From the NCBI GenBank assembly GCA_019635875.1, contig JAHBYP010000001.1, forward strand, positions 1,116,001-1,180,000: a DNA stretch of 64,000 nucleotides, given 5' to 3'. Positions within the stretch are counted from its first letter, which is position 1. Each line of letters starts with the position of its first letter. This DNA is from Alphaproteobacteria bacterium. Lineage in GTDB: Bacteria > Pseudomonadota > Alphaproteobacteria > Reyranellales > Reyranellaceae. Under the pieces are notes generated by a model. That model had not been told where the DNA came from, made no database searches, and saw nothing but the letters and a program-made list of their open reading frames with translations. The translations under genes were made by a program, and so were the position numbers. This document shows, piece by piece, positions 44,973 to 63,500 of this stretch.

Positions 44973-46268
44973 CTACGCCAGGCCGGCGACCGGCGTCGCC
45001 GGGCGGCGATCGACGCGGTTCTCGACCAGGAAGCGCGCGGTCGCCGGCCGGCCGTCCTTGAGGTAGGCCGCCAGCAGCGTGTTCTCGATGATGTCGCGCT
45101 GGGCGCGGCTGCCGCCGATGCGCACGGTCTCGACCAGCACCGGCTCGAGCACGGCGATCGCACCCTTCCAGTCGCCGCGGCCATAGGCTTCGAGACCGGC
45201 GGCGAGCCGCGGCACGACATCGCCGGTGACCGAGCGGCCGGAGTCGATGCGCTGCTTCAGGTCGGCGGCGATGGCGGCGACGCCGTCGCCGTCGCCCGCC
45301 GCGACGCAGGCCAGCGCGCGATGCACATCGATGAAGGCGATGCCGGCCTTGGGGAACGACTTCAGCGCGTAGTCGCGGATCTCGCGCCACTCGCCCTCGC
45401 GCCGGGGATGACCCGCGAGCTCGGCGCGCCACAGGAAGGCGGGCGCGTCGGTGGCGACGTTGAGCGCCGGGCCCCAGGCGGCGCCGGGCCGCACGGCCTT
45501 CTCATAGACCTGCCAGGCGCGCTCGGTCTGGCCCAGGGTCAGCGCGAACATCGCCACGTGCCAGGAGATGTGGCAGTGCATCAGGCCTTCGCGCGGGTAG
45601 GTCGGCAGCCAGGACTCGAGAAAGTCGAGCGCGGCGCGATCCTCGCCCATCTCGTACAGCACATGCGCCTTGATGTGCGCACCATGCGCATTCCTCGCGT
45701 TGGTCGCCATGCTGCGCTCGATCAGCGCCTGGGCCTCGTCGAGCCGGCCGACTTCCTCCAGCGCGAAGGCCAGCACGGACTGGTACCACCAGTCGTCTTC
45801 GAGATGCCTGCGCAGGATCTCGAGGAACTCGACCTGCTCGGGCTCGCGATCGCGCCGGCCGGAGAAGCCGATCAGGCCGAACACGCCGGTGGCCGGCGCC
45901 GCCACCATGGCGTCGCGCGGATGCTGGGCGAGATGCGTGCGGGTGGCCGCCAGCGCCTCGACCGGCTTGCCCTCCATCGCCGTGCACAGAATGTCGACGT
46001 GCGCCTGCTCGCGCGGCGTGGCTCTGGCCGCATGCTCGCGCGCCCTGGCGATCGAGGCCCGCGCCTCGGCGACATTGGCCATCAGGAAATGCGCGCGGGC
46101 CAGCGCGGCGTGGGCGACGGCGAGGTCGGGCTGCGCCATCAGCGCGCGCGCCAGATGGGCCTCGGCGCCATGTTCCGCCGACAGCACGCAGTCGACGCCG
46201 GCGACATAGGCGTCGCGCGCCACGGTGGAATCGGTGCTGATCGGCAGTCCGTAGCGGTCGGCGAGCAT
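44973..46268 (-). CDS. TPR-repeat protein
   Basis: A 431-residue all-helical protein with tetratricopeptide-like repeats, for example LARALMAQPDLAVAHAALAR, ALIERSMATNARNAHGAHIK, and VYEKAVRPGAAWGPALNVA. No signal peptide or catalytic motif is seen, so it is probably cytoplasmic and acts in protein binding. Similar proteins are annotated as tetratricopeptide proteins of unknown function near oxidoreductases. ATG 46268 is preceded by GAGGAAA. It probably forms one transcript with the LLM oxidoreductase 14 bp downstream. It borders the accessory four-gene operon. Confidence 0.85.
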   Translation of the reverse strand: MLADRYGLPISTDSTVARDAYVAGVDCVLSAEHGAEAHLARALMAQPDLAVAHAALARAHFLMANVAEARASIARAREHAARATPREQAHVDILCTAMEGKPVEALAATRTHLAQHPRDAMVAAPATGVFGLIGFSGRRDREPEQVEFLEILRRHLEDDWWYQSVLAFALEEVGRLDEAQALIERSMATNARNAHGAHIKAHVLYEMGEDRAALDFLESWLPTYPREGLMHCHISWHVAMFALTLGQTERAWQVYEKAVRPGAAWGPALNVATDAPAFLWRAELAGHPRREGEWREIRDYALKSFPKAGIAFIDVHRALACVAAGDGDGVAAIAADLKQRIDSGRSVTGDVVPRLAAGLEAYGRGDWKGAIAVLEPVLVETVRIGGSRAQRDIIENTLLAAYLKDGRPATARFLVENRVDRRPATPVAGLA

Positions 46269-46543
46269 GTCAGGCGTTTCCTCGGTTGATCTCGCCGCGA
46301 GGCTAGCCGGTTCAGCGCGGGAGTGCGACGCAAACGATGCTGTCGCGCCACTCGTCGCTGTCGCGTGCCGCTGTGCGGATCGCGGCGACGCGGTCGGGTC
46401 GAGACTGATCGTCGCTTTGACCCACAAATTCAACGGGCATACTTGCCACGGAGCACTGACCGTTTGGTCGGGGCGCATCCCTGTCCAAGACGCAAGCTTG
46501 ATTGCGAACCGTTTGAGGGGGCATGCCAACGGAATGCGCCTGC

Positions 46544-49500
46544 TTATGCGATCCTTCTGGATATCCGATCTCTCAAGTCGAGCGTCACCGGTGCGGAGAG
46601 ATAGCGCCGCCCATCAGGCGTCAGGCTACGTCCACCGGGGCCAACGCGGACCAGATCGAGGCGTGCGAGATACTCGGAAATGATTACGAAATCTGCTCGG
46701 TTTGATATTCCGAGCGCGCGGCGGATTTCCTCCTCCGCCGCAGCTCCCCGCGTCCGCAGCAATTTGAGATACTCAATGTGCTGGCTAGCTAGTCCGTTTG
46801 CGTCGATGCCAAGCGATGTCTCAAACCAGCGAGCTACGGTCCCAACGTTCATCCGTTCCGCAACCTCCTGCTTGGTTGGCACTCTCTTCAACTCCTGCTC
46901 AGCTGTTCCGTAGAAGCTGGATACCAGCGGCTCCAGGATGTTGACACTGGGACGGGGGCTGCATTGCATGCGAGCGGCTATCTCGATGCAGGTTTCGCGG
47001 GTTAACCCGGGTTCGCCAAGCTTCTCGATGGAGTGGAGCCATACGATCCCGGCCATCTCCTCAAGTGTGTACGACCGGAGTATGGTTTTGTCGGGTCGGC
47101 TCTGAAACGCCTCGCTGAGCTTTCCAGGGTCGGTTGTTGCGAGCAGGAAGACGACATCACGAAAATCGTAGATCACGTTACCGACGGTGGTGTGGCGGCG
47201 CTCGTCGAGCGCACTCAGCAAGACGGTTGCCACCGCGTTCGAGACTGCATGGATCTCGTCAATGAAAATGAGGCACGGCTCTACGCGCACAGTACCTGTG
47301 GCGCTCGCTGGTATCTTACCGAGCTCAACTAGGCGTTCGACGATCATGTCCGGCCGACGGAGATCGGCACCGTTGAAGAGGACTGGTTCGAGCTGAAGCA
47401 GTTGTTCGGCGATCCGTCGTGCCAGCGTTGTCTTGCCAACACCTGCGGGCCCGACGAACAGCTTGTCGAGGAAGCGCTCCCCCCATCCTCGTGATTTGCG
47501 CGCTTGATTGTCGAGCTCGTGAGCAATCTCGTCCTGGCCGATCATTCCCAAGGCATTAACCTTCGGCGGCCACGGCTGTCCGGATAGCGCCCCGTACTCG
47601 TCTCGAGTAGCCGGAGTCTCGATGGCCTTGGCTGCGACCGCTTCGCTGTCCGGGACTTGAGTGGTGGATGATGGCAGGATCGTCACGCCATCCGTGGCTC
47701 GCGTCGCAGACGGCGTGCCGCTCCCTGAACCGGTCTGGCCGGACGATGTTGGCGTCGTCGCGCTAGCGTCGATCGTAGTTGGAGTCTTGGGGTGAGCTTC
47801 CGGTCCTTCACCCCGGCCGCTGGGACCGCCGCCTCCGCCAGGCTCAGGGTCTGATATCTTGTGCACGAAGCCTTTGCCGAACAGCTCTTCTGCGAGCGCC
47901 TCGGTGATCGTTCGGACCATGATCGGCACCTTCCGCCCGACAACCGCAGCCTCGCGGGCGGTGTCGATTGAGCGCAGCTTCACGATGACGATTTCGCCAT
48001 CGACATGAACGATCGGCGGTTGAGGGCTGTCACCGAAGAGATCCTTGAGCCATGGCCCCCAAACCTTACGTTGGGAAACATCGTCGCTGTCGGTGCCCCA
48101 ACGATTGGCGGCGGCGCGAACCAGAACTTCCTTCAGCATTTCCGAACGAGGCGCAGCAAAGGGGCCCGTTCCGCCCACGGCATTCAGCAGCACATCCGCT
48201 GTACGCTCGATCTGGTCGGCTGCGCGCGCCACTAGGGCTGCTTCATCCGGCAGACTCGCGTCGCGCGTGGTCTTGACCTCGATGCAGGTGATCCGAAATG
48301 ACCCATCGGCGTCGCGACGGACTGCGATCAGATCGCAGCGCTCACCACCTGTTGCCGGCCCGAGCTTGAGCCAAAGCCGGGCAATACGTCCGTCGACCGA
48401 CGCCACCAGAGCGCCGGGATGCTTCTTGCGCACGTCGCGAGCGGCGAGCAGCATTCCGACAAAGCCCAGTACCTTCGCGTTGTCGGGTAGCCCGGACTGC
48501 TTCTTGATCATGTCCAGCAATCCGGCACCGATCAGGTTGACGCCCTGCCGCAGTACATGACCCAAGCCGGCATCAGTGATAGTGAGGTTGCAGGAGCCGA
48601 AGGCAGCGTACATGAGCGTTGCCAATCGCCCATAGTCTGCGGCGCAGAGCAGCAGCTGCCGGTGCCCCTCTCTACGCTCAAGCAAGCGGATTGCTTTCAT
48701 GCCACTCTCCGCAGGCAAGGCCCGATCGGCGAGCAGCACCCATTGCGCCGACGGCCGGTCACCAAGCACCAGCATGTCGATCGTTGATCGGAGCCGTTCG
48801 GCATCAGCGGATGCGATCATCGTGCTATCACGCTGCTCCTGTTCGAACTCATGAATCATCATCACAAAGTCCGAGAAAGGCGGCTCGCCGGGATGCGGGC
48901 TGAGGCTGATGTCGCCCAGCATGCGGTCGACCACGATTTCGTTGCGGACGCAAAATGGGCTCATCGGCAGCAGTCGCTCGACGCGCCGCCGTCGTACGGC
49001 GATCGAAGACTCGTCAAAGATCGCAATGAGATGTTGCGGCCGCTTGGACAATGCGGTTTGGATGAGGCGGTCAAGGTTCTCGTAAGTGTCCCGCTCGACG
49101 CGCAGTTCTAGCCTGCCGGCCGCGACCTTTTCATAGACCAGATCCTGGGCCTTTCCCTCAAGCGTGGAGGCCGCCATCAGGCGGTCGCGATGCTTGCCGG
49201 TGGCGACGATCGAGACGTCTAGTGCGGGCAACCGAGAGGGATTGTTGCGCGGGTCGTTTAGAAACTTGGTCAGCCGCTCTAGCACGCGCGCCGGTTCGGG
49301 CGGATTGACAAGCGTCAATCGAAGCGGCCGCGGATGGTTCGGATAGAGAAGGACGTAGTGATCGAGCGCCAAGATCAGTGTTTCGAGACCATCTGCGCTG
49401 CTCACGGCATTATGTAGGTTTTCGAAGGTCGCGAGCCCACAAATCGTGTTGGCAACCGGCAAGAGCTGGTCGAGACCTTTTGCCTCCGGCGTGGCACCCG

Positions 49501-51289
49501 TCCGAATAACGCCGAGGAATTGCTCGGGCCTGCGCAACTCCTCGATGATGACCTTGCGGTCGCTGTCGGACAGCGGCCCGGCGTGGACGAGATCGCGCAG
49601 GACTTGGCCCAAGCGTTGATACCTCCAAAGGTGAAGCGGATGCAGCGGCAACATGACCGCCTTTGCACTTACGCCGCCGTCGCTGCGGCGGATCCGCACC
49701 TGGACCAGATCGAGCGAGAGGATTGCATCAAGCGTCGTCTGTGCCCATTCCCTCGATTGATCCCAGACCGCCCGGTAGTTCTGCTGGATCGCCTTGTAGA
49801 GCTCGGTGGTCGCCGTAAGATACTGGCTGCACCGCTCCTTCGCTTCGGGGTGCGTGTCGAGCCATTCGCGGGGGTGGATGAGAAGCTGTCGAATGTCTTT
49901 CGCCAATGCTGAGCGCGCAGCAAGAAAATCGCGCCACATTGCTTCGATCGGACGGGCGCACGATTCCTTCACTGCGTCGACTTCGTCCCAAGCCTTGAGC
50001 AGTTGGTCGATCGAGTAGGTCAGACCGTTGTGCCGCCAGACCATTGCGGGATCAATGAAGACAGGATCGAACTCCGCGTATCTCGCAAGCGCTTGAGGTA
50101 AGTCGGAAACGTCAGTTTCCATGAGCCCGCCGAATCGATCGGCGGCACAGAAACCAGTGACCCAATCAATGATGCGAGGGTCGACTGCTTCGTCAATCCT
50201 TGCTACGCCCCGACTGGTCTCGCGATTGGATGCGAGATGATCGCCATTCTGATCGAACTCCGCCCAGGCATCTTCAAGCGCCTTGCCGATCGTGGCGAGG
50301 TCCTCGTCCCGGCCTTCGAGCAGCGCATCAACCGCCATATCGCGTAGATCCGGATCGTCCGGATCAGAATGGATTTGCTCGTCGTCGTCCGGCTGCTCGT
50401 CATCCGGCTCGTCCTTCGGTCGCTCGACAATCGGCAGAGCATCTGGAGGTAGCGTGACGAGTCGATCGGCGTCCTGCACGGTTAGCCCCGCATGGGGATC
50501 GCCGCGGCGGTAAAGTTCCAATCGATCCAGCGCCTGCGTGACAAGGTTCGAAGTGGTTTCGTCGCGATACCGCGCCGCTCGCAACCGACGCTGCCGGAGT
50601 TCGCCGGGGGAGAGAATGGTGACGCGCTCGCCGACGCGCAAATTGTGGAGGAGGCGCTTGGCGATATCGTCGGCTTCGAACAACTGCGGATCGGCCAAAA
50701 GCCCGAGCGCGGGCAAGGCGTCACGCGGTGCCTCGATCGCGCCCCGCGGTGCGGTGCTCCATTCGGCCAGGAAGTTCGAGATGCCTTCAAGCGAGCGAAG
50801 CGGTGCCAAAGCACGTTCAGTGCGGAGTTTCGAGAGGAGTGAGCGGTGCTGGGGTGTAGCAGTGAACTCAGCTACCCCCTCCGCCCAGTTCAAGAGATAC
50901 CTGGCGAGTTCGCCCGACGAGGCTCGCGAGAAGAAGCGTAAGCCGTGGACACTCGGATTGTATCCCCGTGCTAAGGCGATGATCCGCCGATGGAGACCGC
51001 GGTCGTTGCGCCACTTCGTCGCGACGTGGAGGTCAGTCGTGACGCCTGCGAGATCGCCGAGACCTGCTGCGGTAACGGAGGCCCGGGCTTTGTCCTCGCT
51101 GATGTCAAAACCGACAAGCGCCAGCGAGAATTGCTCTGCGGGGAGGCCACCTGCGACGAGCGCCTGTAGCAAGTTGTCGATATTGCAGCGCGGCAGGCCT
51201 TCCCGCGCGAAATCATTCTCATGATCAAGTCGGGTCAGAATCCAAGCAGCCAGCGCTTCGCCGACCAGTGAGGGCGCAGTTCGGGCCAT
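46544..51289 (-). CDS. 1581-residue protein: PD-(D/E)XK-type nuclease motif plus C-terminal RuvB-like AAA+ module
   Basis: Last gene of the four-gene operon. Residues 1-900 are unrecognised and mainly helical, with an acidic stretch around 290-320. At about 960-1010 there is a PD-(D/E)XK-like site: Asp986 in RCDLIAVRR, then Glu1004 and Lys1006 in ITCIEVKTT. A Gly/Ser/Thr/Pro-rich linker follows (about 1140-1215). The C terminus (about 1245-1575) is RuvB-like: Walker A FVGPAGVGKTTLARR (Lys1286), Walker B CLIFIDEIHA (Asp1344-Glu1345), sensor region LLATTDPGKL, and a winged helix RADFVIISEYLARLDLV. It may load onto or move along DNA and cut it. The start is one base after the preceding stop. Confidence 0.85.
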   Translation of the reverse strand: MARTAPSLVGEALAAWILTRLDHENDFAREGLPRCNIDNLLQALVAGGLPAEQFSLALVGFDISEDKARASVTAAGLGDLAGVTTDLHVATKWRNDRGLHRRIIALARGYNPSVHGLRFFSRASSGELARYLLNWAEGVAEFTATPQHRSLLSKLRTERALAPLRSLEGISNFLAEWSTAPRGAIEAPRDALPALGLLADPQLFEADDIAKRLLHNLRVGERVTILSPGELRQRRLRAARYRDETTSNLVTQALDRLELYRRGDPHAGLTVQDADRLVTLPPDALPIVERPKDEPDDEQPDDDEQIHSDPDDPDLRDMAVDALLEGRDEDLATIGKALEDAWAEFDQNGDHLASNRETSRGVARIDEAVDPRIIDWVTGFCAADRFGGLMETDVSDLPQALARYAEFDPVFIDPAMVWRHNGLTYSIDQLLKAWDEVDAVKESCARPIEAMWRDFLAARSALAKDIRQLLIHPREWLDTHPEAKERCSQYLTATTELYKAIQQNYRAVWDQSREWAQTTLDAILSLDLVQVRIRRSDGGVSAKAVMLPLHPLHLWRYQRLGQVLRDLVHAGPLSDSDRKVIIEELRRPEQFLGVIRTGATPEAKGLDQLLPVANTICGLATFENLHNAVSSADGLETLILALDHYVLLYPNHPRPLRLTLVNPPEPARVLERLTKFLNDPRNNPSRLPALDVSIVATGKHRDRLMAASTLEGKAQDLVYEKVAAGRLELRVERDTYENLDRLIQTALSKRPQHLIAIFDESSIAVRRRRVERLLPMSPFCVRNEIVVDRMLGDISLSPHPGEPPFSDFVMMIHEFEQEQRDSTMIASADAERLRSTIDMLVLGDRPSAQWVLLADRALPAESGMKAIRLLERREGHRQLLLCAADYGRLATLMYAAFGSCNLTITDAGLGHVLRQGVNLIGAGLLDMIKKQSGLPDNAKVLGFVGMLLAARDVRKKHPGALVASVDGRIARLWLKLGPATGGERCDLIAVRRDADGSFRITCIEVKTTRDASLPDEAALVARAADQIERTADVLLNAVGGTGPFAAPRSEMLKEVLVRAAANRWGTDSDDVSQRKVWGPWLKDLFGDSPQPPIVHVDGEIVIVKLRSIDTAREAAVVGRKVPIMVRTITEALAEELFGKGFVHKISDPEPGGGGGPSGRGEGPEAHPKTPTTIDASATTPTSSGQTGSGSGTPSATRATDGVTILPSSTTQVPDSEAVAAKAIETPATRDEYGALSGQPWPPKVNALGMIGQDEIAHELDNQARKSRGWGERFLDKLFVGPAGVGKTTLARRIAEQLLQLEPVLFNGADLRRPDMIVERLVELGKIPASATGTVRVEPCLIFIDEIHAVSNAVATVLLSALDERRHTTVGNVIYDFRDVVFLLATTDPGKLSEAFQSRPDKTILRSYTLEEMAGIVWLHSIEKLGEPGLTRETCIEIAARMQCSPRPSVNILEPLVSSFYGTAEQELKRVPTKQEVAERMNVGTVARWFETSLGIDANGLASQHIEYLKLLRTRGAAAEEEIRRALGISNRADFVIISEYLARLDLVRVGPGGRSLTPDGRRYLSAPVTLDLRDRISRRIA

Positions 51290-51290
51290 C

Positions 51291-52649
51291 TCAGATCAAC
51301 TCTTCGGCGTTTATAGCAACGAGGGTAAGACCGTCCGACGGCTCGACGGCCAAGCCCAGGCGGATTAGCAGTGCTTCGAAGGCGGCGGCATTGGGGCGTA
51401 GATCGTCGTCCCGATCAAGGGGGCCGAAGCGATGCGAGCGCAGGAAATCGCCGTCATGCGCACGTGCGCCGACAACAAGCGACCATGTCGATTGCAGCTG
51501 ATCGGCGAATTCCGGCAGAGTGAGAACCTGCTCCTTTTCGAGGAGACTGAGGGCAAGAACCCGCAGCGTATCCGCCTGCAATTCGATATGTTTGTGCTTA
51601 GCAGCGCCGGAACGCGGCTGGGCTATCCCGATGCGAACAGCCAGATCGCGGAAGTGTTCGTCGAGGACCTGGCGCGATTCGGCGGACGCAGCGAAGACGT
51701 TCCAATCTTTCTCGCTCACGCTTGAGTGGCCGGGTCCAGCGATGGCGCGGTCGTAGCTTACGGAGAAGAGGTCGAGAGCCCGAGTATAGCTCGTTCGGCT
51801 TTGCGCGCGAATGCGCAGATTGTCTCCCTGCAGCGAGTCGATCAGCAACACCGGCTGATCGCTCGACTGACGCAGCATGTAGGCGAACAACCAGCAGCAC
51901 AGACCGAGTACGATATAGCGAAGCGCATAGTTGGAGCGCTGGCGCTCGAGGTTGGACGCAAGCCGACCCACCGCGATCGTGCAGTCGTGCATCATCGAAC
52001 CGATTGCCGTGGCGCGCGCAGGCTCGATTGCACCGTATAGTTCGTCGTGTCGATCGGACCAGGCCTCCTCCTCGTCATCGAGCAGCGGGGAGCCCAAAGC
52101 GGCCAGCGGAGGCGCCGGCATGTCAAGAAGCCGGCGGATCATGTCTAGAGCCTGCCGGCCTTCAGGGGTTGCTTCAAAGATAGTGAGGACGAAGCTTCCA
52201 GAATGTCCGTGGTTCTTAGAGGAATCCGAAATGTATTTGATCGACGGAGCGCTGTAGTCTGCGCCGAACGTCGAATAGGGCGCAAACGACGCAGCCAGAG
52301 CAGAACCGTCATTATTGTAGGCCGCATTGAGATGGGATCGAAGCGTTCGGAAGCCGTCAAGCTCCACGGAAGCACTCATACGTTTGAGATCCACTAGCAG
52401 GGGGTGCAGTCGCTCGGACGGATACTCGTCGCGAACGCGCTGCGAATCCTTGGGCGCAACCTTCGGCACGGATGCTTTGTTTAGGTATTCTAGCCGTTGA
52501 TAGCGTCGCGTTAGTGCCAGTAGAAAACTGGTCGCAAAATGAACCGGCTTCATCCGAAGTGGCTGGTAGCCAAGCAGGGCGCCATGAACGCGCCGTTCGG
52601 CCGCAGTGTTTTCGCGCCGTTCGGCGGCAGAAAAGGAAGGCTTAGGCAT
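51291..52649 (-). CDS. Unrecognised 452-residue protein of the DruA/nuclease operon
   Basis: Third gene of the operon. I do not recognise the family. The N terminus is basic (AAERRENTAAERRVHG, MKPVHFATSFLLALTRRYQR). The middle has a hydrophobic helix at about 243-258 (RYIVLGLCCWLFAYML) that could be a membrane or buried core helix. The C-terminal part is helical with ELQADTLRVLALSLLEKEQV. No nuclease or ATPase motif is visible. In position and size it corresponds to DptG of phosphorothioation-dependent restriction loci, a comparison by context only. Its ATG overlaps the ATPase gene by eight bases, and its stop lies one base before the large nuclease/AAA gene. Confidence 0.75.
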   Translation of the reverse strand: MPKPSFSAAERRENTAAERRVHGALLGYQPLRMKPVHFATSFLLALTRRYQRLEYLNKASVPKVAPKDSQRVRDEYPSERLHPLLVDLKRMSASVELDGFRTLRSHLNAAYNNDGSALAASFAPYSTFGADYSAPSIKYISDSSKNHGHSGSFVLTIFEATPEGRQALDMIRRLLDMPAPPLAALGSPLLDDEEEAWSDRHDELYGAIEPARATAIGSMMHDCTIAVGRLASNLERQRSNYALRYIVLGLCCWLFAYMLRQSSDQPVLLIDSLQGDNLRIRAQSRTSYTRALDLFSVSYDRAIAGPGHSSVSEKDWNVFAASAESRQVLDEHFRDLAVRIGIAQPRSGAAKHKHIELQADTLRVLALSLLEKEQVLTLPEFADQLQSTWSLVVGARAHDGDFLRSHRFGPLDRDDDLRPNAAAFEALLIRLGLAVEPSDGLTLVAINAEELI

Positions 52650-54216
52650 ATCTCCGAACCCCCTCGTACCGACGCCCGTCGGTGCTCAGGTTTACTTGGA
52701 TGAGCTCCAAACTCTCGAGATGCACTGACCAAATCACGTCGCGCTGACTGGTCGCATGAGCCCCCAGCTTCTCGAGAAAGGCATCTAGCCGATGGATATC
52801 ACGCTCCGGCACCAGCTTGCGCGGCAGACCGCGTCCCAGGCGGCGAAGCGTTCGCCACAGCGGGAAGTCGATCCGTAACCGCGGCGTCTCGGCCATGTTG
52901 ATTGCGGTCAGTGCGATATGATCGGCACTGTAGCTGAAACAGTCTTCCAAGCGTGATGGTAGGCGTGGGATCTCAAGGGCGAACTGCTCGCTTGGGACTC
53001 GCTCGGCGGCAACAAACGAGCGCGAGGGTTGCTCGTGGAATCGGTGCCCGCTCCAAACATAGAGATGTTGATCGCGGGAATCGAAGCGCACTGGGCAATA
53101 GGATGCGTTGATGGCATCAACGAGCGATGCAACAGCAGCACGATCCGGGCCGCGACTCAAGAGGGCCTGGAAATCCTTAGTGTCTGGATCGGCCAACTCG
53201 AAAAGTTCTTCACCTTGTTCATGCTCAAAGTAGAAGCGACGCTTCATCGCCGCAAAATCCTCCCATTCTAAGGTCGGATGGGGTGGCGGCACCGGCGCCC
53301 GCAACGCCCAGCCTTGGCGCACTTTGGGGGCCTTAGTTTCGATTGCGGCATCCCACAGCGGATGACTGGTCGCCGCAGGGTCGACTGATTGGAGTGCGGC
53401 GGTCAGGTCGAAGCGGTCATCTCGGGCGAAGAGCGATTCAGAATACCAGTCGAGACGCTGGAAGTCGCCGCGTTCCATCCGGCCAAAGATCATGCGAGAT
53501 ATCAGGATCCAAAGTTCCCGTACTGTGGCGCGATGACCGAGCGCGATCAGACGAGTTGTAAGAGCGCGAAGGCGCGTCCGTACCCTAGGGAGCGACAAAA
53601 GTTCGACATTGCGACGTGCGACTGGCTCGGTGGCGTCCGTGAGCGACGCTGTAAAGTCCGCGTCCGCCAGCAGCTTGTCGATCAACGCGTCGAAGAAGTT
53701 TGCGCTGAGCGGGTTGCGCAGGCTGAGATCGATCACGAGCACGTTGCCAGCGGCTTCTTCCTGTGATTTCGGTCCATAAGCGAGTCGATGACGGCATTGT
53801 CGCGATACTTCTGAGAGATGTGCAGCAGCAGGGTCCGCCATCCGCAGCTGGTAGAGAGGATACTCATTCGCGGCGATACAAAACGGACGAGCTTGCTCTA
53901 TCGCTTTTTGCCATTCCGCCAGGATGGGTGCGGGATCGCCGCCTCGCATCAGCGCCGTTGCGTCCTCTACCACGATCGCTCCGGCCGCCTCCAGGGCGGT
54001 GCGGGCGCGGCGCAAGAGATGGGTCTTGCCGTCGCCAGCATTGCCAGTCAGGACGACGCTTCGACCGGCGCGAACCTGATCGGCCAAGAAGCGCTCGATC
54101 TTTCCATCGATATGCAGCCGCTCGAAATCGTCGTCGCTCAAAGCCTCCGCGATTGCTTTGGGGCCCGCCGCAGCCAGCGTCCGCCAAAGCTCGCTGCCGT
54201 TCTTGTCCCTGTCCAT
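52642..54216 (-). CDS. P-loop ATPase of the DruA/nuclease operon (DptF-like in position)
   Basis: A 524-residue protein. The Walker A motif LTGNAGDGKTHLL (Gly58 to Thr65, Lys64) is followed by a short strand AIVVEDATALMRGG, and a likely acidic site in NVLVIDLSLRNPLS. Middle and C-terminal parts are unassigned. The LTGNAGDGKT form is seen in ATPases of defence loci, including DptF-type proteins, as far as I recall. ATG 54216 is the first standard start; the frame extends 11 codons upstream to a non-standard ATT. It follows the DruA-like gene after about 25 bases and overlaps the next gene by eight. It may drive or gate the nuclease. Confidence 0.85.
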   Translation of the reverse strand: MDRDKNGSELWRTLAAAGPKAIAEALSDDDFERLHIDGKIERFLADQVRAGRSVVLTGNAGDGKTHLLRRARTALEAAGAIVVEDATALMRGGDPAPILAEWQKAIEQARPFCIAANEYPLYQLRMADPAAAHLSEVSRQCRHRLAYGPKSQEEAAGNVLVIDLSLRNPLSANFFDALIDKLLADADFTASLTDATEPVARRNVELLSLPRVRTRLRALTTRLIALGHRATVRELWILISRMIFGRMERGDFQRLDWYSESLFARDDRFDLTAALQSVDPAATSHPLWDAAIETKAPKVRQGWALRAPVPPPHPTLEWEDFAAMKRRFYFEHEQGEELFELADPDTKDFQALLSRGPDRAAVASLVDAINASYCPVRFDSRDQHLYVWSGHRFHEQPSRSFVAAERVPSEQFALEIPRLPSRLEDCFSYSADHIALTAINMAETPRLRIDFPLWRTLRRLGRGLPRKLVPERDIHRLDAFLEKLGAHATSQRDVIWSVHLESLELIQVNLSTDGRRYEGVRRYA

Positions 54217-54241
54217 CGTCCTGCTTGACCTCCGCCGCCGC

Positions 54242-56290
54242 TCATTCAATCGATTCTCCCGTTTCTTGTCTCGTTAGATTGCCTAAGGGCACAAAGCCGT
54301 CCAGCGGTAAGGCGCGCATGGTTGGTTCGTGGTTGAGTCGGCTAGCGAGCCAGCGGCGACACCAGAAGTCGGCGATTCGCTTGGTAGCATCGACATACTG
54401 CTCCGGAAATTGAAGGTAGCCAGGGAGCAACGACGTGCGCTCGACGAGCCAATCACGAGCTTCCGCGAACAGCGGCACGGCGTAGATCAGACGGTGCTGG
54501 CGATGCTGTAGCAGCTTGTCAGGATCGTATCCAAGTTTCCGCAACCCCATCTTTAGCTTTCGGAGCTTCGGACTGGTGCCTTCACCAAAGACACTGTTCA
54601 CTTCGCGAAAGTCGTTTTGCGCGGAAAGAAAAGCGTCGATCGAACGGCTGGTATCCTGGGAGAACTGGAGCGTTCCGAATCCCGAAGTTTGGCCTATTGG
54701 ATGGAATGCGATCTCGACCTGATCGGAAGCGATTACCCCCTTCGGAAGACGCAGCCTGTTATATTGGCTTGAACCGTGCACGTAGAGGCTGGTCGTGCCG
54801 AGGTAAACTAGGGCATTGTCTCGCGTGACCGGCCGGTTTCGCATTTGAGACGAAATGATCGACGGGTTGCTGTAATTGCGCCGGTAGTCTGCGCCGATGC
54901 GCGGGCTCAGCATGAGCAGCGCGACGAGCTTGCCACCCAAGAGCCGACTGTAAGGCGGGATCGCGCCGCATGTAGTAATTTCCAGCAGATTTGCGCCCGC
55001 ACGGCGACCCTTGAGCGCCTCGAGGATTATGTGGATGGCGCTGCGCACGGCTTCGATTTGAAGCACGGTGAGGGCGAGCGTGGGATCGGTTAGAGCCTCG
55101 CGATGGCGCGCGATCGTTATACGCGCCGACAAGAGCCGCGAAAGTGCCGTGGCGCGTTTCTTGGCGACTAGCTTCTTGCGAGCGCTGTGCATCCGGACAT
55201 CTACGGATGCCTTAGGCTCGAGCTGTAGAATGTCGTCATCGACCGGTGGGGCATATTCGTCGGACCAATGGCCGGGATCAAAGGCATCGCGGTCAGCACC
55301 AATGACCTCTCGCAACAAAGCTTCTCGCCTCTGCGCGAAGTCCTTACCCTGGCGCGCCAAACGACGTATGAGTTCGTCATCGGGCGCTGCGACCTGCTCG
55401 GGCGTGACGAGATTGGTCCAGTCGATCTCTTCCAGCGATGTCGCGATCTGTTGCTCAAGCCATCGCACCTCGACATCCAGCGCTTCTGTGCCCTCGAACG
55501 ACGCCTTGGTGAAGCGCTCAATGATGGTCTTCAAATGCCAGCCGATATAGGCTTCTCGCTTCTCGCCCATCTCGAGCGGACAATTGTTGAGCGCCGCGAT
55601 GCCGATCACGGGGTGCGCGGGATGAGCTGCATCGCGGACGAGGTAGAGAAGCTGGCGGCCCGGCGTTGGCACTTGCGGGATTGACCAACTATAGCGGAAA
55701 TACCGCCAGATCTCGCGGAGACGGCGCCCGGTGATCGCGTCGGCGGTGCCATCCGCCTCCTGAAGATAGGGCCGGATTGCAGTGGCCAAAGCCTCTCTGC
55801 CTTCGTCTCTTGCTTTCGACAGACGCTGGGCCAGCTCCCGCCCTTCCGCCATTAACAGCCGGACGCTTTTTCGTCCCAGTCGATCCTCACCCTCCATCTT
55901 CGCAATGAAATCGATGATTGCGGGGTGGCGACGTTGCTCCTCGACGACCGGTCGAAGCTCGTTGCGAAGGGAATCCTTGTTGGCGATCGTTTCTTGCGCG
56001 GAGCCTCCCGTTACCAGCTCCTTGGGATTTTCGAGCGCGAAGCCATAACCTTGTTCAATCACCCGCCAGCGCAGACGAGCAAGGTCGGTTAGCACCCTGA
56101 CGCAAGCCTCATAGGCGAGCGCGGTCTTGCCGAGATTTGTTGCCGACCGGCACCAGGCGATCTCAGTTTCGAGGGCATCAATCATCTCGTCTCTTCGCCC
56201 ATTACATTGGGCGTTGGAGAGCCTCATTGCAAAATCGTGGAATCGCTCGGCAGACTCGCCGTCGAGTGGTGGGTAAAGCGGAACGATCAT
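54242..56290 (-). CDS. DruA-like (DUF4338) protein
   Basis: A protein of about 682 residues, first gene of the operon. The central to C-terminal part fits the long form of DUF4338/DruA: GRRLREIWRYFRYSWSIPQV, QLLYLVRDAAHPAHPVIGIA with MGEKREAYIGW, LLEITTCGAIPPYSRLLGGK, LVYLGTTSLYVHGSSQYNRL, and NSVFGEGTSPKLRKLKMGL. DruA is a component of Druantia anti-phage systems; its activity is not clear to me. No DruE helicase is present here. ATG 56290 is used; a TTG at 56326 is an alternative. The gene starts 82 bp after the fumarase stop on the same strand, so the operon has its own promoter in that gap or relies on read-through. Confidence 0.85.
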   Translation of the reverse strand: MIVPLYPPLDGESAERFHDFAMRLSNAQCNGRRDEMIDALETEIAWCRSATNLGKTALAYEACVRVLTDLARLRWRVIEQGYGFALENPKELVTGGSAQETIANKDSLRNELRPVVEEQRRHPAIIDFIAKMEGEDRLGRKSVRLLMAEGRELAQRLSKARDEGREALATAIRPYLQEADGTADAITGRRLREIWRYFRYSWSIPQVPTPGRQLLYLVRDAAHPAHPVIGIAALNNCPLEMGEKREAYIGWHLKTIIERFTKASFEGTEALDVEVRWLEQQIATSLEEIDWTNLVTPEQVAAPDDELIRRLARQGKDFAQRREALLREVIGADRDAFDPGHWSDEYAPPVDDDILQLEPKASVDVRMHSARKKLVAKKRATALSRLLSARITIARHREALTDPTLALTVLQIEAVRSAIHIILEALKGRRAGANLLEITTCGAIPPYSRLLGGKLVALLMLSPRIGADYRRNYSNPSIISSQMRNRPVTRDNALVYLGTTSLYVHGSSQYNRLRLPKGVIASDQVEIAFHPIGQTSGFGTLQFSQDTSRSIDAFLSAQNDFREVNSVFGEGTSPKLRKLKMGLRKLGYDPDKLLQHRQHRLIYAVPLFAEARDWLVERTSLLPGYLQFPEQYVDATKRIADFWCRRWLASRLNHEPTMRALPLDGFVPLGNLTRQETGESIE

Positions 56291-56372
56291 TAGTGCGTCG
56301 GACGTTCGGCGAGTAGCCGCAGACAAGGCAAGCGGCTAGGAAGTTTGGCGGAAGGCGACACAGCGACCCTCA

Positions 56373-57989
56373 CTACATCTTCAGCTCGCTGAAGAAGTCG
56401 TTGCCCTTGTCGTCGGTGACGATGAAGGCCGGGAAGTTCTCGACCTCGATGCGCCAGATCGCTTCCATGCCGAGCTCGGGATACTCCAGCACCTCGACCT
56501 TGCGGATGTTGTTCTTGGCCAGGATCGCGGCCGGGCCGCCGATCGAGCCGAGGTAGAAGCCCTTGTGCTTCCGGCAGGCGTCGACGACCTGCTGGCTGCG
56601 GTTGCCCTTGGCCAGCATCACCATCGAGCCGCCGGCGGCCTGGAACAGATCGACGTAGGAATCCATGCGGCCCGCGGTGGTTGGGCCGAAGGAGCCCGAG
56701 GCCATGCCCGTCGGCGTCTTGGCCGGACCGGCGTAGTAGACCGGGAAATCCTTGAAGTACTGCGGCAGGCCCTGGCCGGCGTCGAGCCGCTCCTTGAGCT
56801 TGGCATGCGCGGAGTCGCGCGCGACGATCAGCGTGCCGCTGAGGCTGACGCGCGTCTTCACGGGATGCTTCGTGAGCGTCGCGAGGGTGTGCGCCATGCC
56901 CTTGTTGAGATCGACCGGCACGACCTCGCCGGAGAGCTGCGTCGGCTCGACCTCGGGCAGATACTGCGCCGGGTTGGTCTCGAGCTGCTCGAGATAGACG
57001 CCGTCCCGGGTGATCTTGCCCATGGCCTGGCGGTCAGCGGAGCAGGAGACGCCGAGCCCGATCGGCACCGAAGCGCCGTGCCGCGCCAGCCGGATCACGC
57101 GCACGTCGTGGCAGAAATACTTGCCGCCGAACTGCGCGCCGATGCCCATCTTGCGCGTGAGATCGAGCACCTTCTGCTCCATCTCGCGGTCGCGGATGGC
57201 CACGCCGTGCTTGTTGCCCTCTCCCGGCAGGTTATCGAGGTAGCGCGTCGAGGCGAGCTTCACCGTCTTGAGGTTCAGCTCGGCCGAGGTGCCGCCGATG
57301 ACGATGGCGAGGTGATAGGGCGGGCAGGCCGCGGTGCCGAGCGTGCGGATCTGGGTGTCGAGGAACTTCAGCAGCGAGGCCTCGTTCAGCACCGCCGGCG
57401 TCTGCTGGTAGAGGTAGCTCTTGTTGGCCGAGCCGCCGCCCTTGGCGATGAACAGGAATTTGTAGGCGTCGCCCTCGGTGGCGTAGATCTCGATCTGCGC
57501 CGGCAGGTTGGTGCCGGTCTGCGCCTCCTTGAACATCGAAAGCGGCGCGACCTGCGAGTAGCGCAAATTGGTCTCGGTGTAGGTCTTGAACACGCCCCTG
57601 GCGATCGCCGCCTCGTCGCCGCCGCCGGTCCAGACCCGCTGGCCCTTCTTGCCCATGACGATGGCGGTGCCGGTGTCCTGGCACATCGGCAGCACGCCGC
57701 CGGCCGAGATGTTGGCGTTCTTCAGGAGCTCCAGCGCCACGTACTTGTCGTTGGCCGTCGCCTCGGCATCGTCGAGGATCGAGGCGAGCTGCTTGAGATG
57801 GCCGGGCCGCAGCAGGTGCGAGATGTCGTGGAAGGCGGCGGCGGTCAGCGTCGTGATCGCTTCGGGATCGACGGTGAGCACCTCGGCGCCGTTGAGCGTC
57901 GTGGTGCCGACGAAATCCGACGTCAGCTTGCGGTACGGCGTGGCATCGTCGCCGAGCGGAAACATGTCCTGATAAACGAAATCGACCAT
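56373..57989 (-). CDS. fumA: Class I (Fe-S) fumarate hydratase
   Basis: A 538-residue class I fumarase with a 4Fe-4S cluster. Cysteines that could bind the cluster are in [12 protein letters not shown] (Cys103), [17 protein letters not shown] and [13 protein letters not shown]. The C-terminal beta domain contains [15 protein letters not shown] and [15 protein letters not shown]. Class I enzymes of this length act as homodimers on fumarate/malate and may also act on tartrate isomers. ATG 57989 gives the full family length. The genome also has class II fumC (31635-33032). This gene marks the upstream border of the accessory four-gene operon. Confidence 0.94.
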
Positions 57990-59337: not shown

Positions 59338-61458
59338 TCACTGCTTGGTCCAGGTGATCCGGTAGATGCAACCATCGAGAAATTCCACCAGCGTGCTGCG
59401 CATGTTTCCCCCGTACGAGCGCACCGGCCGGCCGTCATAGGCGATGGTTACGGCCCTCAGCCCATCCTCGCCGATGCGGATCACCATCGGGCCGCCATAG
59501 GTCGTGCTCGCCTGCAGGACGCCGTTGGTCGCCGTGCCGGTGATGGTGAAGGAGCCCGTGCAGACGCGGCCGCGCGCATGGGTCTGCACGGAGGCGGTCG
59601 CCGACCAGCGCCCGTCGCCGGCATGCAGCGATGGCGGCGGCTTGCGCGCCGCCTCCTCGCGGCGACGGCGTTCGGCCTCGGCGGCGGCACGCCGACGCGC
59701 TTCCTCGGCCGCCGCCCGCGCCCGCGCTTCCTCCTCGGCTCTGCGCCTGGCTTCCTCCTGCGCGCGGCGTTGCGGATCGTCGGCCGCCGCCTTGCGTCGC
59801 GCCTCCTCCTCGGCCGCACGACGGCGTGCTTCCTCGGCGGCTGCACGGCGTGCCTCCTCGTCGGCGCGACGACGTGCCTCCTCGTCGGCGCGGCGACGTG
59901 CTTCCTCGTCGGCGCGGCGTCGCGCTTCCTCGTCGGCGCGGCGGCGTGCTTCCTCGTCGGCGCGGCGGCGTGCTTCCTCGTCGGCGCGGCGACGTGCTTC
60001 CTCGTCGGCGCGGCGGCGTGCTTCCTCGTCGGCACGGCGGCGAGCTTCCTCGTCGGCGCGACGGCGCGCTTCCTCCTCCGCGGCGCGGGCCCGCGCGGCC
60101 TCCTCGTCGGCGGCGCGCTGGCGGGCAGCCGCTTCCTCGATGCGGCGACGCTCGGCCTCGTCGGCGGCGGCCTTGGCGCGCGCGGCTTCGGCGGCGAGGT
60201 CGGCCTGACGGCGCTCCTCGGCGGCGCGTCGCTCGGCCTCGAGGCGGCGTTGTTCAGAGCCGTCGAACAGGCCGAGCCCGCCGGCGAACAGCAATCCGCC
60301 GCCGATGCCCAGCAGCAGGACCGCGAGCGTGCCGACGATCAGCGGCCAGCGCGCGGGTCTGGCCGGCGGATCGGCACGCGGCGAAAGGCGGCTGGGCGAC
60401 TGCTCGCGCAGCGACGGCTGGCGGACCGACGGCTCGCGCATCGAAGGCTGGCGTTGCGATGGCAGCGGCGCGGCCGGCTGTGCGGGAGGCGCCATCGCCA
60501 TCGCCTCCGACCTGCTCGAGCGCTGGCCGGCGATCACTGTCGGGAACTCGGCGCGGGTCGCCGAGAGGGTCGCGTCGGCCGGCATCGGCTCGTCGAACAG
60601 GATGGCCCGCCAGGCCGCCACCGATGGCGGACGGTTCTCCTTGCGCAGACCCAGCCCGGCATCGATGCCGGCAAGGAAGGAGTGGGGATACTTGCCCGCG
60701 GCCGCCTGCGCCGCCGGCACCATGCGGTCGTTGAGCAGGCGGGTCGTGGCGTCGGGCGGCGGCCAGCCTGTGATCGCCTCGTAGAGCGTCGCGGCCAGCG
60801 CGTAGATGTCGGTCCACGGACCCTGCTCGCCATCGGCGGCGTACTGCTCGGCGGGCGCGTAGCCCGGCGTGTAGACGCTGGTCATGGCATGCGTGCCGCT
60901 GCGCCTGGAGATGCGCGCGGCACCGAAATCGACCAGCACCGGCTGGCCGTTCGGCCGGATCAGGATATTGCCCGGCTTGATGTCGCGGTGCAGATAGCCG
61001 CGCGCATGCACGGCCTCCAGCCCGCTCAACAATTGCCGCGTGATCGGCATCAGGCGGTCGGCGGCCATGGGGCCGTCGCGATCGAGGATCAGCGCCAGGC
61101 TGCGCCCCTCGATCAGCTCCATGACCATGTAGCCGGTGCCGTTGGTTTCCATGAAATCGTGCACGGCCACGATGTTGGGCGCGCTCATCGCCGCCAGCGT
61201 GCGCGCCTCGTCGACGAAGCGCTGCAGGCCCCACTGGTAGAGCCGCGTGTCGGACTCGGTGCGCGGGCGGATCGTGGTGTCCTGCTCGCGCACAGCGACG
61301 TCGGCCGGCAGGTACTCCTTGATGGCGACGTCGCGGCGCAGGGCTTCGTCGCGCGCCCGGTAGGTGATCCCGAAGCCGCCTTCGCCCAGAACCGCGCTCA
61401 AGGTGTAGCGACCGACACGGTAGCCCGTCGGCAGCGCCACCAGTCGACCGCCCTCCAT
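59338..61458 (-). CDS. Membrane Ser/Thr protein kinase with a charged repeat region
   Basis: A 706-residue Hanks-type kinase. The kinase domain (about 15-290) has LGEGGFGITYRA, catalytic Lys47 in DVAIKEYLP, HRD with Asp159 in YLHRDIKPGNIL, and DFG with Asp177. A linker with short repeats (QPSMREPSVRQPSLREQ) follows, then one membrane helix (about 370-397) and a long Ala/Glu/Arg-rich helical region with nine tandem copies of ADEEARRR. The C-terminal domain of about 80 residues lies outside the membrane, and CTGSFTITGTATNGVLQAS suggests a small beta fold. This arrangement suggests an envelope sensor that reports to the cytoplasmic kinase. It is divergent from a VWA-domain gene, with tmRNA between. 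Confidence 0.92.
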   Translation of the reverse strand: MEGGRLVALPTGYRVGRYTLSAVLGEGGFGITYRARDEALRRDVAIKEYLPADVAVREQDTTIRPRTESDTRLYQWGLQRFVDEARTLAAMSAPNIVAVHDFMETNGTGYMVMELIEGRSLALILDRDGPMAADRLMPITRQLLSGLEAVHARGYLHRDIKPGNILIRPNGQPVLVDFGAARISRRSGTHAMTSVYTPGYAPAEQYAADGEQGPWTDIYALAATLYEAITGWPPPDATTRLLNDRMVPAAQAAAGKYPHSFLAGIDAGLGLRKENRPPSVAAWRAILFDEPMPADATLSATRAEFPTVIAGQRSSRSEAMAMAPPAQPAAPLPSQRQPSMREPSVRQPSLREQSPSRLSPRADPPARPARWPLIVGTLAVLLLGIGGGLLFAGGLGLFDGSEQRRLEAERRAAEERRQADLAAEAARAKAAADEAERRRIEEAAARQRAADEEAARARAAEEEARRRADEEARRRADEEARRRADEEARRRADEEARRRADEEARRRADEEARRRADEEARRRADEEARRRADEEARRAAAEEARRRAAEEEARRKAAADDPQRRAQEEARRRAEEEARARAAAEEARRRAAAEAERRRREEAARKPPPSLHAGDGRWSATASVQTHARGRVCTGSFTITGTATNGVLQASTTYGGPMVIRIGEDGLRAVTIAYDGRPVRSYGGNMRSTLVEFLDGCIYRITWTKQ
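59857..60073. repeat. Nine-copy 24-bp tandem repeat inside the kinase gene
   Basis: On the plus strand, a 24-base unit of the form CCTCGTCGGCGCGGCGACGTGCTT is repeated nine times with small changes, mostly at third codon positions. It encodes ADEEARRR units. The copies would form a long charged helix, and copy number probably varies between strains by slippage or recombination. It is protein-coding, not a CRISPR array: there are no spacers. Confidence 0.85.
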
Positions 61459-61586
61459 CCGGCCTGCCTCCGTCCCGGCACCTCAGTCCAGAAACCTGAG
61501 CATACGCTCACAACGCCGGACAGGAAACATCACGACTGCGCCAGCGGTAAGGCGAGTCAGAGGCGAAGCGGTGGATGAAATCAAGT

Positions 61587-61844
61587 GGAGGGGCTTCTGT
61601 TGCCCGGTGCCCCTCCGAACCGCGCTTACGTCCGCTGTTTAGGCGGCAGCAGCGAGTGCAACGTCGTTATCGTTGGCACTTCTGGTTTGGCCCGGTAACG
61701 GCGGTACCATGCCGAGCGAAAACTACGCCTTTACTGCGTCCGTCGATCCTGTTTCGCCCCCTCATGGTGGAGGCGCCGGGTACTGCCCCCGGGTCCGAGC
61801 CGCCTATGTCACGCAGCGTTTATCGCCATAGCCGGTTGCCCGGC
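61587..61844 (-). ncRNA. ssrA: tmRNA, circularly permuted two-piece form
   Basis: On the minus strand the coding piece carries the tag reading frame GCC AAC GAT AAC GAC GTT and on, giving ANDNDVALAAAA and a TAA stop. Upstream of it lies the acceptor piece, whose T stem (CCGGG/CCCGG) and CGCCTCC end in ACCA at 61765. After only TGA comes GGGGGCGAAACAGGATCGAC, the 5' end of the coding piece, whose GGGGGCG pairs with CGCCTCC as acceptor stem. This order is the permuted arrangement of alphaproteobacteria. GGAGGGGC/GCCCCTCC (61587-61616) is a probable pseudoknot stem near the 3' end. Ends are approximate. The RNA rescues stalled ribosomes and tags products for SspB/ClpXP. Confidence 0.92.
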
Positions 61845-61850
61845 AGGACC

Positions 61851-61879
61851 AATATAGGCGAGCGGGCGGGCGAAATGAA
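61851..61879 (-). promoter_or_regulatory. Probable tmRNA promoter
   Basis: Reading the minus strand, TTCATT (61879-61874) and TATATT (61856-61851) are 17 bases apart. TATATT matches the -10 consensus in five of six positions; the -35 is weak. Transcription would begin near 61844, at the foot of a GCCGG-GCAA-CCGGC hairpin. Confidence 0.5.
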
Positions 61880-61958: not shown

Positions 61959-63500
61959 ATGGACCAGCAAGAAGGAGACCAGCGGGAGAGGCTGCTCACC
62001 ACCACCAGCGCGGCGATCCTGCCGCTGGGCGTCGACGGCCATCCGCTGCACGGCCGCCAGGACCAGATCCGCGCCGTGGTCGAGCGCCGCCTGGGCCGGC
62101 GTCACGCCCTGCTGCTGGCCGAGGCCGAGCACCGGCCCGACAGCGACATCACCGACTGGTATTCGCCGGCCGCGGGCGCGGCCATCGGCGCGGCGGCGAT
62201 GGACGAGGAAGGGCGCAACGCCCTGCGTGGCGAGATCGACGCCCTGCTGGCGGACATCGACCGGCTGGGTGGCGAGCTCGAGCGCGCCAAAGGCGCCGCC
62301 GCGCAGGCCGCCGGCCGCCATCTGAGGCTGGCGGCGCGACGGTCGCCCGACGATGCCTTCCTCTACCGCGTCGGCGAGCAGCCGGTGCTGGTCGCCTGGG
62401 GTCATGACGACACGCGGCCGGCGGTGAAGGTCGCGCCGCCGGTGGCCGCGGCAACGCCGGCCGCTGCCGTGCCGGCCGTCGCCGCAGCGGAGCCTCCGCC
62501 GCCACCGCCACCAGCGCCGACGCCGTTGCGGGAAACTGAAGAGAAAAAGCGCGGCGTCTTCCCCTGGCGGCTGATCGCTGCCGGACTGGCCGCGTTCCTC
62601 GCCGGCCTCGGCACTGCCTGGATCCTGGCGCGCTTCATGCCGCCATCCATCGTGCAGGTCGCCGACGATCAGCGGCGCGTGGTGCCGGTAACCGTCGTGC
62701 TGCAGCGGGAGATCGACCGGCTGCGCGAGGAGGGCGAGCAGCTGCGCGCGACCCTGGCATCCCTGCGCCAGGAGTTCGCGCGCAAGCACGCGCTCTGCCC
62801 GCCGCCCGGGCTCAAGCCGCAGGAGGAGCGCGTGGTGTGCACCCGCCCGCCGCGGCGGGCGCGCATGGTGGTGATCTTCGACACCTCCAACAGCATGGGC
62901 CTGCCGACCGACAGCCCCGAGGACATCGCCGATCTCGAGCGCCGCTGGGGCGCGGGCGATGCCGAGGCGCAGCGGCGCGGCATGGAGCTGGTGCGCGGCC
63001 CCGGGCACAAGCGCATCGACGACGCGCGCGCCGCCGCGCTCGGCCTGGTCGAGGCCATGCCGCCCAACATCGATGTCGGGCTGATCACCTTCCTCACGCG
63101 CTGCGAGGTCGGCGTCGACGTGCGCCCCGGCGAGCCGCGCGCCGACGTCGCCGAGGAGCTGCGCCGCGTGCAGCCGCGCGCCAGCACGCCGCTGGCCGCC
63201 GCGCTGCGGCTCGCCGCCTCGCAGCTCTCGACCGACCCGGCGATCGCCGCGGCGCAATCGATCGTGGTGATCACCGACGGCCACGAGGGCTGCGGCGGCG
63301 ATCCCTGCGCCGCGGCGGCCGACCTGAAGGCGGCCTTCCCCTCGGTCAAGGTGCACGTCATCGACGTCGTCGGCATCTCGCGCCTGCAATGCGTCGCCGA
63401 CATCACCGGCGGCTCGACCGTCGGCGCTCGCGACACCGGGCAGCTCAAGGCCGCGATGCGCCGCACCCAGGCGGCGATCGAGCAGGACGCCTGTCGTTAG
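61959..63500 (+). CDS. Membrane protein with a C-terminal von Willebrand factor A domain
   Basis: A 513-residue protein. Residues 1-150 are soluble and unassigned, with a coiled segment EIDALLADIDRLGGELERAK. An Ala/Pro-rich linker precedes one membrane helix (about 201-227). A short coiled coil (REIDRLREEGEQLRATLASL) and a VWA domain (about 300-510) follow. The metal-ion site DxSxS is intact (Asp308, Ser310, Ser312 in FDTSNS), with Thr in ASTPLAAAL and Asp in VVITDGHEG. The VWA domain lies in the periplasm by topology, and its cysteines may form disulfides. ATG 61959 follows an AT-poor region on the other side of tmRNA. Divergent position to the Ser/Thr kinase hints at a shared process. Confidence 0.87.
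   Translation: MDQQEGDQRERLLTTTSAAILPLGVDGHPLHGRQDQIRAVVERRLGRRHALLLAEAEHRPDSDITDWYSPAAGAAIGAAAMDEEGRNALRGEIDALLADIDRLGGELERAKGAAAQAAGRHLRLAARRSPDDAFLYRVGEQPVLVAWGHDDTRPAVKVAPPVAAATPAAAVPAVAAAEPPPPPPPAPTPLRETEEKKRGVFPWRLIAAGLAAFLAGLGTAWILARFMPPSIVQVADDQRRVVPVTVVLQREIDRLREEGEQLRATLASLRQEFARKHALCPPPGLKPQEERVVCTRPPRRARMVVIFDTSNSMGLPTDSPEDIADLERRWGAGDAEAQRRGMELVRGPGHKRIDDARAAALGLVEAMPPNIDVGLITFLTRCEVGVDVRPGEPRADVAEELRRVQPRASTPLAAALRLAASQLSTDPAIAAAQSIVVITDGHEGCGGDPCAAAADLKAAFPSVKVHVIDVVGISRLQCVADITGGSTVGARDTGQLKAAMRRTQAAIEQDACR

Follow-up and report, generated by a model that had tools for sequence, protein, structure and literature searches.

What is a relative of the phage-defence protein DruA doing apart from the other parts of a Druantia system? 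A first-pass annotation of the window (the whole stretch of 64,000 nucleotides that was analysed) had seen clear DUF4338 segments in the protein encoded at 54242-56290 and no DruE-type helicase or other Druantia gene around it, and had guessed at a DNA- or nucleotide-acting module shared between systems. The evidence collected here points to a horizontally moved four-gene cassette in which DruA appears to accompany a variant of the DndFGH/SspFGH complexes, with a RuvB-like motor at the end of the H subunit.

DruA within an inserted cassette

The features of the locus, in window coordinates, are as follows.

44973-46268, minus strand: left flank, TPR-repeat gene (TPR_19 match; empty site)
46269-56372, no strand assigned: island of about 10.1 kb with the four genes DruA-F-G-H and nothing else (empty site in genome G306; GC)
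46544-51289, minus strand: H, 1581 aa, DndH/SspH-like core, nuclease and C-terminal RuvB-like motor (homology)
46592-47545, minus strand: RuvB-like AAA+ motor of H with winged-helix end, aa 1249-1566 (NCBIfam, Pfam, PDB profiles, Foldseek)
48272-48334, minus strand: predicted PD-(D/E)xK nuclease residues of H, D986, E1004 and K1006 (near-invariant in the alignment)
51291-52649, minus strand: G, 452 aa, protein in the DndG/SspG position (homology via haloarchaeal G; place in the operon)
52642-54249, minus strand: F, 535 aa, SspF/DndF-like P-loop protein (PADLOC SspF, 6e-15)
54022-54048, minus strand: Walker A motif of F, TGNAGDGKT, near-invariant in relatives (alignment)
54242-56290, minus strand: DruA, long form, 682 aa from ATG (PF14236; PDLC00001; AlphaFold model)
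54443-54970, minus strand: DUF4338/DruA match, piece 2, aa 441-616, with invariant C441, G453-K454, T499, Q509-Y510 and E570 (Pfam alignment)
55526-55837, minus strand: DUF4338/DruA match, piece 1, aa 152-255 of 682 (Pfam alignment)
56373-57989, minus strand: right flank, fumarase-like gene (conserved in relatives without the island)

Judged by profile searches, the open reading frame at 54242-56290 is a genuine relative of DruA. The search with PF14236 proposed in the first-pass annotation gave a significant match (111.6 bits, E 5e-32, cut-off 27) in two pieces, bearing out the DUF4338 segments seen by eye, and the long-form DruA model of PADLOC (PDLC00001) scored 418 bits over 602 residues. 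In the predicted structure, a helical insert lies between the two Pfam pieces. The start methionine is the same in relatives that are 68-74% identical; an alternative TTG start at 56326 would give a protein of 694 aa. This is the only DruA copy in the 6.2-Mb genome, and among 76 genomes of the order a long DruA occurs in this genome alone.

The boundaries of the island are given by a genome of the same genus (G306), where the sequence left of 46269 is joined directly to that right of about 56367, leaving an empty site in which the TPR gene starts 15 bases past the stop codon of the fumarase-like gene. The island begins directly after that stop codon; the right-flank gene itself we take, from inspection by eye, to be fumarate hydratase. 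GC content is about 0.60 within the island and about 0.70 outside. No terminal repeats were seen at the island ends, and scans for promoters and terminators gave no more than expected by chance. Given the empty site, the GC contrast and the presence of long DruA in only one of the 76 genomes of the order, acquisition of the island as a set by horizontal transfer can be deduced, and we conclude that DruA-F-G-H is a complete cassette that moved as one unit. Elsewhere in the window, a permuted tmRNA gene lies at 61548-61857, about 5 kb from the island, and a gene for a protein kinase with an extended stretch of RRADEEA-type repeats is found near a gene for a von Willebrand type A domain (59338-61458 and 61959-63500).

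The F-G-H trio and the motor of H

The three genes downstream of DruA lie on the same strand with ends overlapping or touching; the last 8 bases of DruA belong to F as well. The order F-G-H and the P-loop F are those of DndFGH/DptFGH and SspFGH (PMC10853773, PMC8092258), the likeness to SspF being direct and that of G and H being traced through haloarchaeal proteins. F is therefore likely a nucleotide-binding P-loop subunit. No family model matches G directly; it aligns with a haloarchaeal G at 3e-10, which in turn matches SspG at 2.5e-12, and its position in the operon is the same in relatives, so that G is predicted to be the DNA-recognition subunit. Weak matches of G to RecA fusion chains in the PDB profile search involved one short stretch only and were set aside. 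The earlier reading of the neighbourhood thus holds insofar as no other Druantia gene is present, and fails in that it missed a recognisable DndFGH/SspFGH-type trio next to DruA.

Residues 314-1113 of H align to a haloarchaeal H at about 1e-29 by tblastn, and that haloarchaeal protein matches SspH at 1.6e-67, mainly via its FtsK part; identity to the RuvB-type H proteins of relatives is 41-76%. As in the known complexes, a long DNA-binding core appears to be followed by a PD-(D/E)xK nuclease, whose residues are present, and then by a C-terminal motor. It is in this last part that H departs from them, with a RuvB-like motor in place of a HerA or FtsK ATPase and a core only about 20% identical to FtsK-type H, and for this reason the cassette is filed as a variant of DndFGH/SspFGH and not as a full member.

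The assignment to RuvB comes from four independent kinds of comparison. The NCBIfam RuvB model matches the C-terminus (about 330 residues) at 1.8e-18 over model positions 27-326 of 330, Pfam RuvB_N and RuvB_C both match, and in the PDB profile search RuvB takes all of the first 12 places, the best at 1.6e-13. The 43 best Foldseek matches of the C-terminal model are likewise all RuvB; as this model is of low confidence, only the domain match was used and the arrangement of domains was left aside. The likeness to the RuvB branch-migration motor extends over the full length of the AAA+ and winged-helix parts and includes all the motor motifs, with Walker A, Walker B, sensor 1, arginine-finger and sensor 2 positions kept across the RuvB-type H clade. 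Unlike RuvB, the motor is fused behind a restriction-type nuclease and shows 20-25% identity.

A comparison of C-terminal motors in 59 H proteins recognised 36 of FtsK type, 13 of HerA type and 6 of RuvB type, to which L033 can be added from a fragment, making seven RuvB-type loci. In a tree of the H core from which the motor was left out they form one clade (support 99), with HerA-type proteins as nearest outgroups, and a single replacement of HerA by RuvB is accordingly the simplest history. The survey that describes capture of HerA and FtsK by DndH makes no mention of RuvB (PMC10853773), nor was it found in the literature retrieved on DndH, DptH, SspFGH and DptFGH. The motor swap to RuvB is the new part of this finding. 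One further H protein (L057:11065-15855), with a C-terminal Walker A motif GVQGAGKS, falls outside the FtsK, HerA and RuvB groups and possibly carries another captured motor.

Other peculiarities were seen in related loci. Many FtsK-type loci of Firmicutes have a fifth gene of about 226-231 aa after H; the example at L041:19853-20533 matches SfsA, the C-terminal part being an RE domain according to Pfam, and it is possibly a further nuclease of the FtsK-type variant. Weak similarity of one G (L061:13397-14887) to MAD7 and of one H (L041:15065-19846) to MAD8 hints that FGH-like parts may be shared with the methylation-associated defence system.

Partners of long DruA and the DruE-NERD-DruD block

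In all, 96 loci with long DruA were collected; in searches of genome contigs an alignment-based scan confirmed relatives and a single-sequence scan confirmed none. FGH genes accompany DruA at 73 of the 96, an HSP90/MutL-type ATPase at 18 and both at none, a sample that favours the FGH side since the genome loci were taken as the 80 most similar to the window. More even genome draws gave five long DruA genes, three with FGH and two with the HATPase. The tree of long DUF4338 proteins labelled by their neighbours, which had been suggested at the outset and was built from 96 sequences, separates the two partner sets by a single change (SH-aLRT 91). Sharing of DruA between systems, as first proposed, is therefore borne out in the form of two lineages with mutually exclusive partners. 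The HATPase-DruA(-DruE-NERD-DruD) systems have a long DruA with the same invariant residues, and differ in having an HSP90/MutL-type (MzaB-like) ATPase in place of FGH and in forming the sister lineage on the DruA tree.

A check anchored on H instead of DruA gave a similar picture, as all 7 plasmids found with the H core also carry long DruA, which adjoins F, G and H in the plasmid regions that were read; this search reaches H proteins near the present subfamily, and canonical DndH and SspH were not seen by it. DruA thus appears, from gene neighbourhoods, to be a constant partner of this FGH subfamily, and in 41 of 76 DruA open reading frames in FGH context it is fused to F. Standalone FGH without marking genes has been described before, as have DUF4338 domains (called GNAT) fused to DndF (PMC10853773); in the present cassette, by contrast with DndFGH/SspFGH, DruA is a separate gene.

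Several loci of the collection are unusual. Both FGH and HATPase DruA loci occur on contigs listed as viral by IMG/VR (L100-L105). One Halobaculum plasmid carries two DruA-FGH(FtsK) copies (L011:13776-23874 and L184:2693-13161) in which DruA, F or H is split or interrupted, with no DruE annotated nearby. In a Sphingopyxis MAG (L031:7110-12094), DruA comprises two ORFs, and F and G apparently form a single ORF of 977 aa. At L044:22-11827 one FGH set is flanked by two DruA genes, of which the first, at the locus edge, is only a fragment.

The relation to Druantia type I (DruA, DruB, DruC, DruD, DruE) was considered next to these neighbourhoods. The likeness lies in DruA itself, given its match to the type I long-form model, and the differences lie in the partners F, G and H and in the missing Druantia genes. 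With a DruE1 model, a search of the whole genome (rated completeness 100%) recovered only a 24-bit generic helicase match; tblastn of relatives of DruE, NERD, DruD and the HATPase against the window gave nothing convincing and no DruE remnant, and PADLOC Druantia models found no DruB, DruC or DruD among the remaining operon proteins. The earlier statement that no DruE-type helicase lies near DruA is hence extended from the neighbourhood to the whole genome.

The first-pass annotation had also held that a druE gene just outside the operon in close relatives would refute its reading, and on this point the relatives differ. The closest one (L021, 74% in DruA) does have such a gene: DruE (2053 aa, 1448 bits) comes directly after DruA-F-G-H, with NERD and DruD-like proteins and a divergent pair of SNF2 type next in line, whereas three genomes of the window's own clade (G290, G292 and G298) have no DruE. 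In haloarchaeal plasmids DruE adjoins the same four genes. DruE is visible at only 4 of 73 FGH loci, where the available sequence often stops about 2 kb past H, and a test at the level of genomes is consequently the stronger one: at 1e-20, no DruE was found in 40 of 48 FGH genomes, many of which are MAGs and may be incomplete. The DruE-free genomes include isolates of Muricomes, Exiguobacterium, Bhargavaea, Lutispora and several Paenibacillus. The occurrence of DruA outside Druantia, as claimed, is thus seen well beyond this locus. As DruE is attached in few relatives and absent from most FGH genomes, DruA-FGH can be viewed as a self-standing module that is joinable to a DruE module, and since the closest relative has DruE-NERD-DruD attached, DruE may help where it is present.

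The DruE-NERD-DruD block is found repeatedly, together with divergent SNF2-type helicase genes, after DruA-FGH as well as after HATPase-DruA (L130:1045-15703, L131:1352-13460, L013:16807-29632 and L008:15926-29684), and in L131 it occurs without DruA in the stretch that was read. It looks like a separate module.

Predicted chemistry of DruA and proposed control of the cassette

An AlphaFold model of DruA, built from an alignment without rows from plasmid records, reached a pLDDT of 87.5 and a pTM of 0.85. The top matches in VIA-align are GNAT acyltransferases and GNAT-like proteins, with NAA60 at Z 9.0 (162 of 176 residues aligned), the GNAT-like part of CurA at 7.9, TofI at 7.8 and PA1377 at 7.3. 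Foldseek of the model against the PDB and a PDB profile search with the protein gave no significant match and no match, respectively; the GNAT fold is thus recognised by VIA-align, as a moderate match, with Foldseek alone not significant. DUF4338 has already been assigned as GNAT in the literature, in agreement with the model (PMC10853773). A P-P-Y-x4-G-G-K-L stretch is located in the model at the expected place of the GNAT pyrophosphate loop, a putative acyl-CoA site. The core of DruA is therefore predicted to have the GNAT acyltransferase fold, and the guess of a DNA- or nucleotide-acting module finds no support in it. Because C441, G453-K454, T499, Q509, Y510, E570 and other residues are invariant in the FGH and HATPase lineages alike, one chemistry seems to serve both kinds of system. 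Kinship with phage Mu Mom and Mom-like DNA-acylating GNATs was also considered; DruA resembles them by predicted fold (PMC7824862), and a profile-profile comparison showed no similarity (hhalign probability 0.1). Coupling to nucleases is seen for some Mom genes (PMC7824862), and the analogy is functional only.

The presence of a control partner would be expected, because SspFGH without its marking partner damages the DNA of unmarked cells and is toxic (PMC8092258). The phosphorothioation partner of FGH is often absent (PMC10853773). Here, a search covering DndC/SspD-type enzymes found none of them, DndC included, in the genome, the PAPS-reductase relatives being CysH and CysD only, and phosphorothioation in the same genome was rejected; in the isolate DruA-FGH genomes G747, G778 and G784 there are no PAPS-reductase genes at all. 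This FGH subfamily must then be controlled otherwise.

Taken together, the cassette is probably an anti-invader module of the DndFGH/SspFGH restriction kind, with a RuvB-type motor and with DruA supplying control. In such a module G and the core of H would settle on foreign DNA, the RuvB-like ring would pull in duplex or branched DNA, for instance intermediates of replication or recombination, and the predicted nuclease of H would nick what is drawn in. Control would fall to DruA instead of phosphorothioation, its likeliest means being the acylation of whatever distinguishes self from non-self, either DNA or an FGH subunit. We infer the anti-phage role, the DNA cleavage and the use of branched DNA in this scheme, as well as every target of DruA, which could be DNA (a self mark), an FGH subunit (a switch) or host targets (as a suicide effector).

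The role of DruA is where the readings diverge most. Rakesh et al. proposed a suicide-effector role for DUF4338 domains fused to DndF (PMC10853773), and DruA could similarly be a backup effector, a GNAT acetylating host proteins (or tRNA) once the FGH nuclease is blocked, with FGH discriminating self by other means. The structural matches of DruA include GNAT toxins such as AtaT (VIA-align Z 6.2), and its fusion to F is shared with other variable effector domains; yet effector domains vary whereas DruA is constant in this FGH subfamily, and its invariant residues are kept in unrelated HATPase systems, so we consider this role possible without favouring it. It is unlikely, in our estimate, that DruA is the modification arm proper, placing a GNAT acyl mark on host DNA such that FGH with the RuvB motor destroys unmarked DNA. 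Were that the case, the cassette would represent restriction-modification built on DNA acylation, a Mom-like trick reached independently, and the same DruA chemistry would also serve the HATPase/DruE systems.

Two other alternatives concern the make-up of the cassette. Loss of the DruE part from a Druantia type I system, leaving DruA-FGH as a remnant, would account for the DruE adjoining the same four genes in L021 and in haloarchaeal plasmids. It is very improbable, as none of the four genes is disrupted and the insertion comprises exactly these four, no DruE trace is left in the window, DruE is missing from most FGH genomes and from three of the window's own clade, and FGH and HATPase are mutually exclusive as partners. 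The RuvB-like end of H might, on the other hand, be a regulatory ATPase or assembly ring that no longer works as a DNA motor. The pre-sensor-1 hairpin of RuvB meets RuvA; the stretch of H that matches this hairpin differs from that of true RuvB in the alignments, and the cassette has no RuvA partner. Set against this, the motor motifs are kept across the clade and the RuvB-like part occupies precisely the position that FtsK/HerA DNA pumps have in sister H proteins, and loss of the motor function seems rather unlikely.

The anti-invader module with DruA in control bears on how such loci are read. Most long DruA proteins in this collection, which was assembled by similarity to the window, have DndFGH/SspFGH-type nucleases beside them and no DruE, and reading a lone DruA as a partial Druantia would for this reason often be wrong. 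The toxicity that FGH can have when it lacks a self mark (PMC8092258), together with a constant GNAT partner, leads to a testable question, namely how the host is spared. By its genes, the cassette is a variant of DndFGH/SspFGH that combines DruA with a RuvB-like motor, and the exchange of a FtsK/HerA pump for a RuvB ring would add a branch-migration-type motor to the known DNA-restriction engines.
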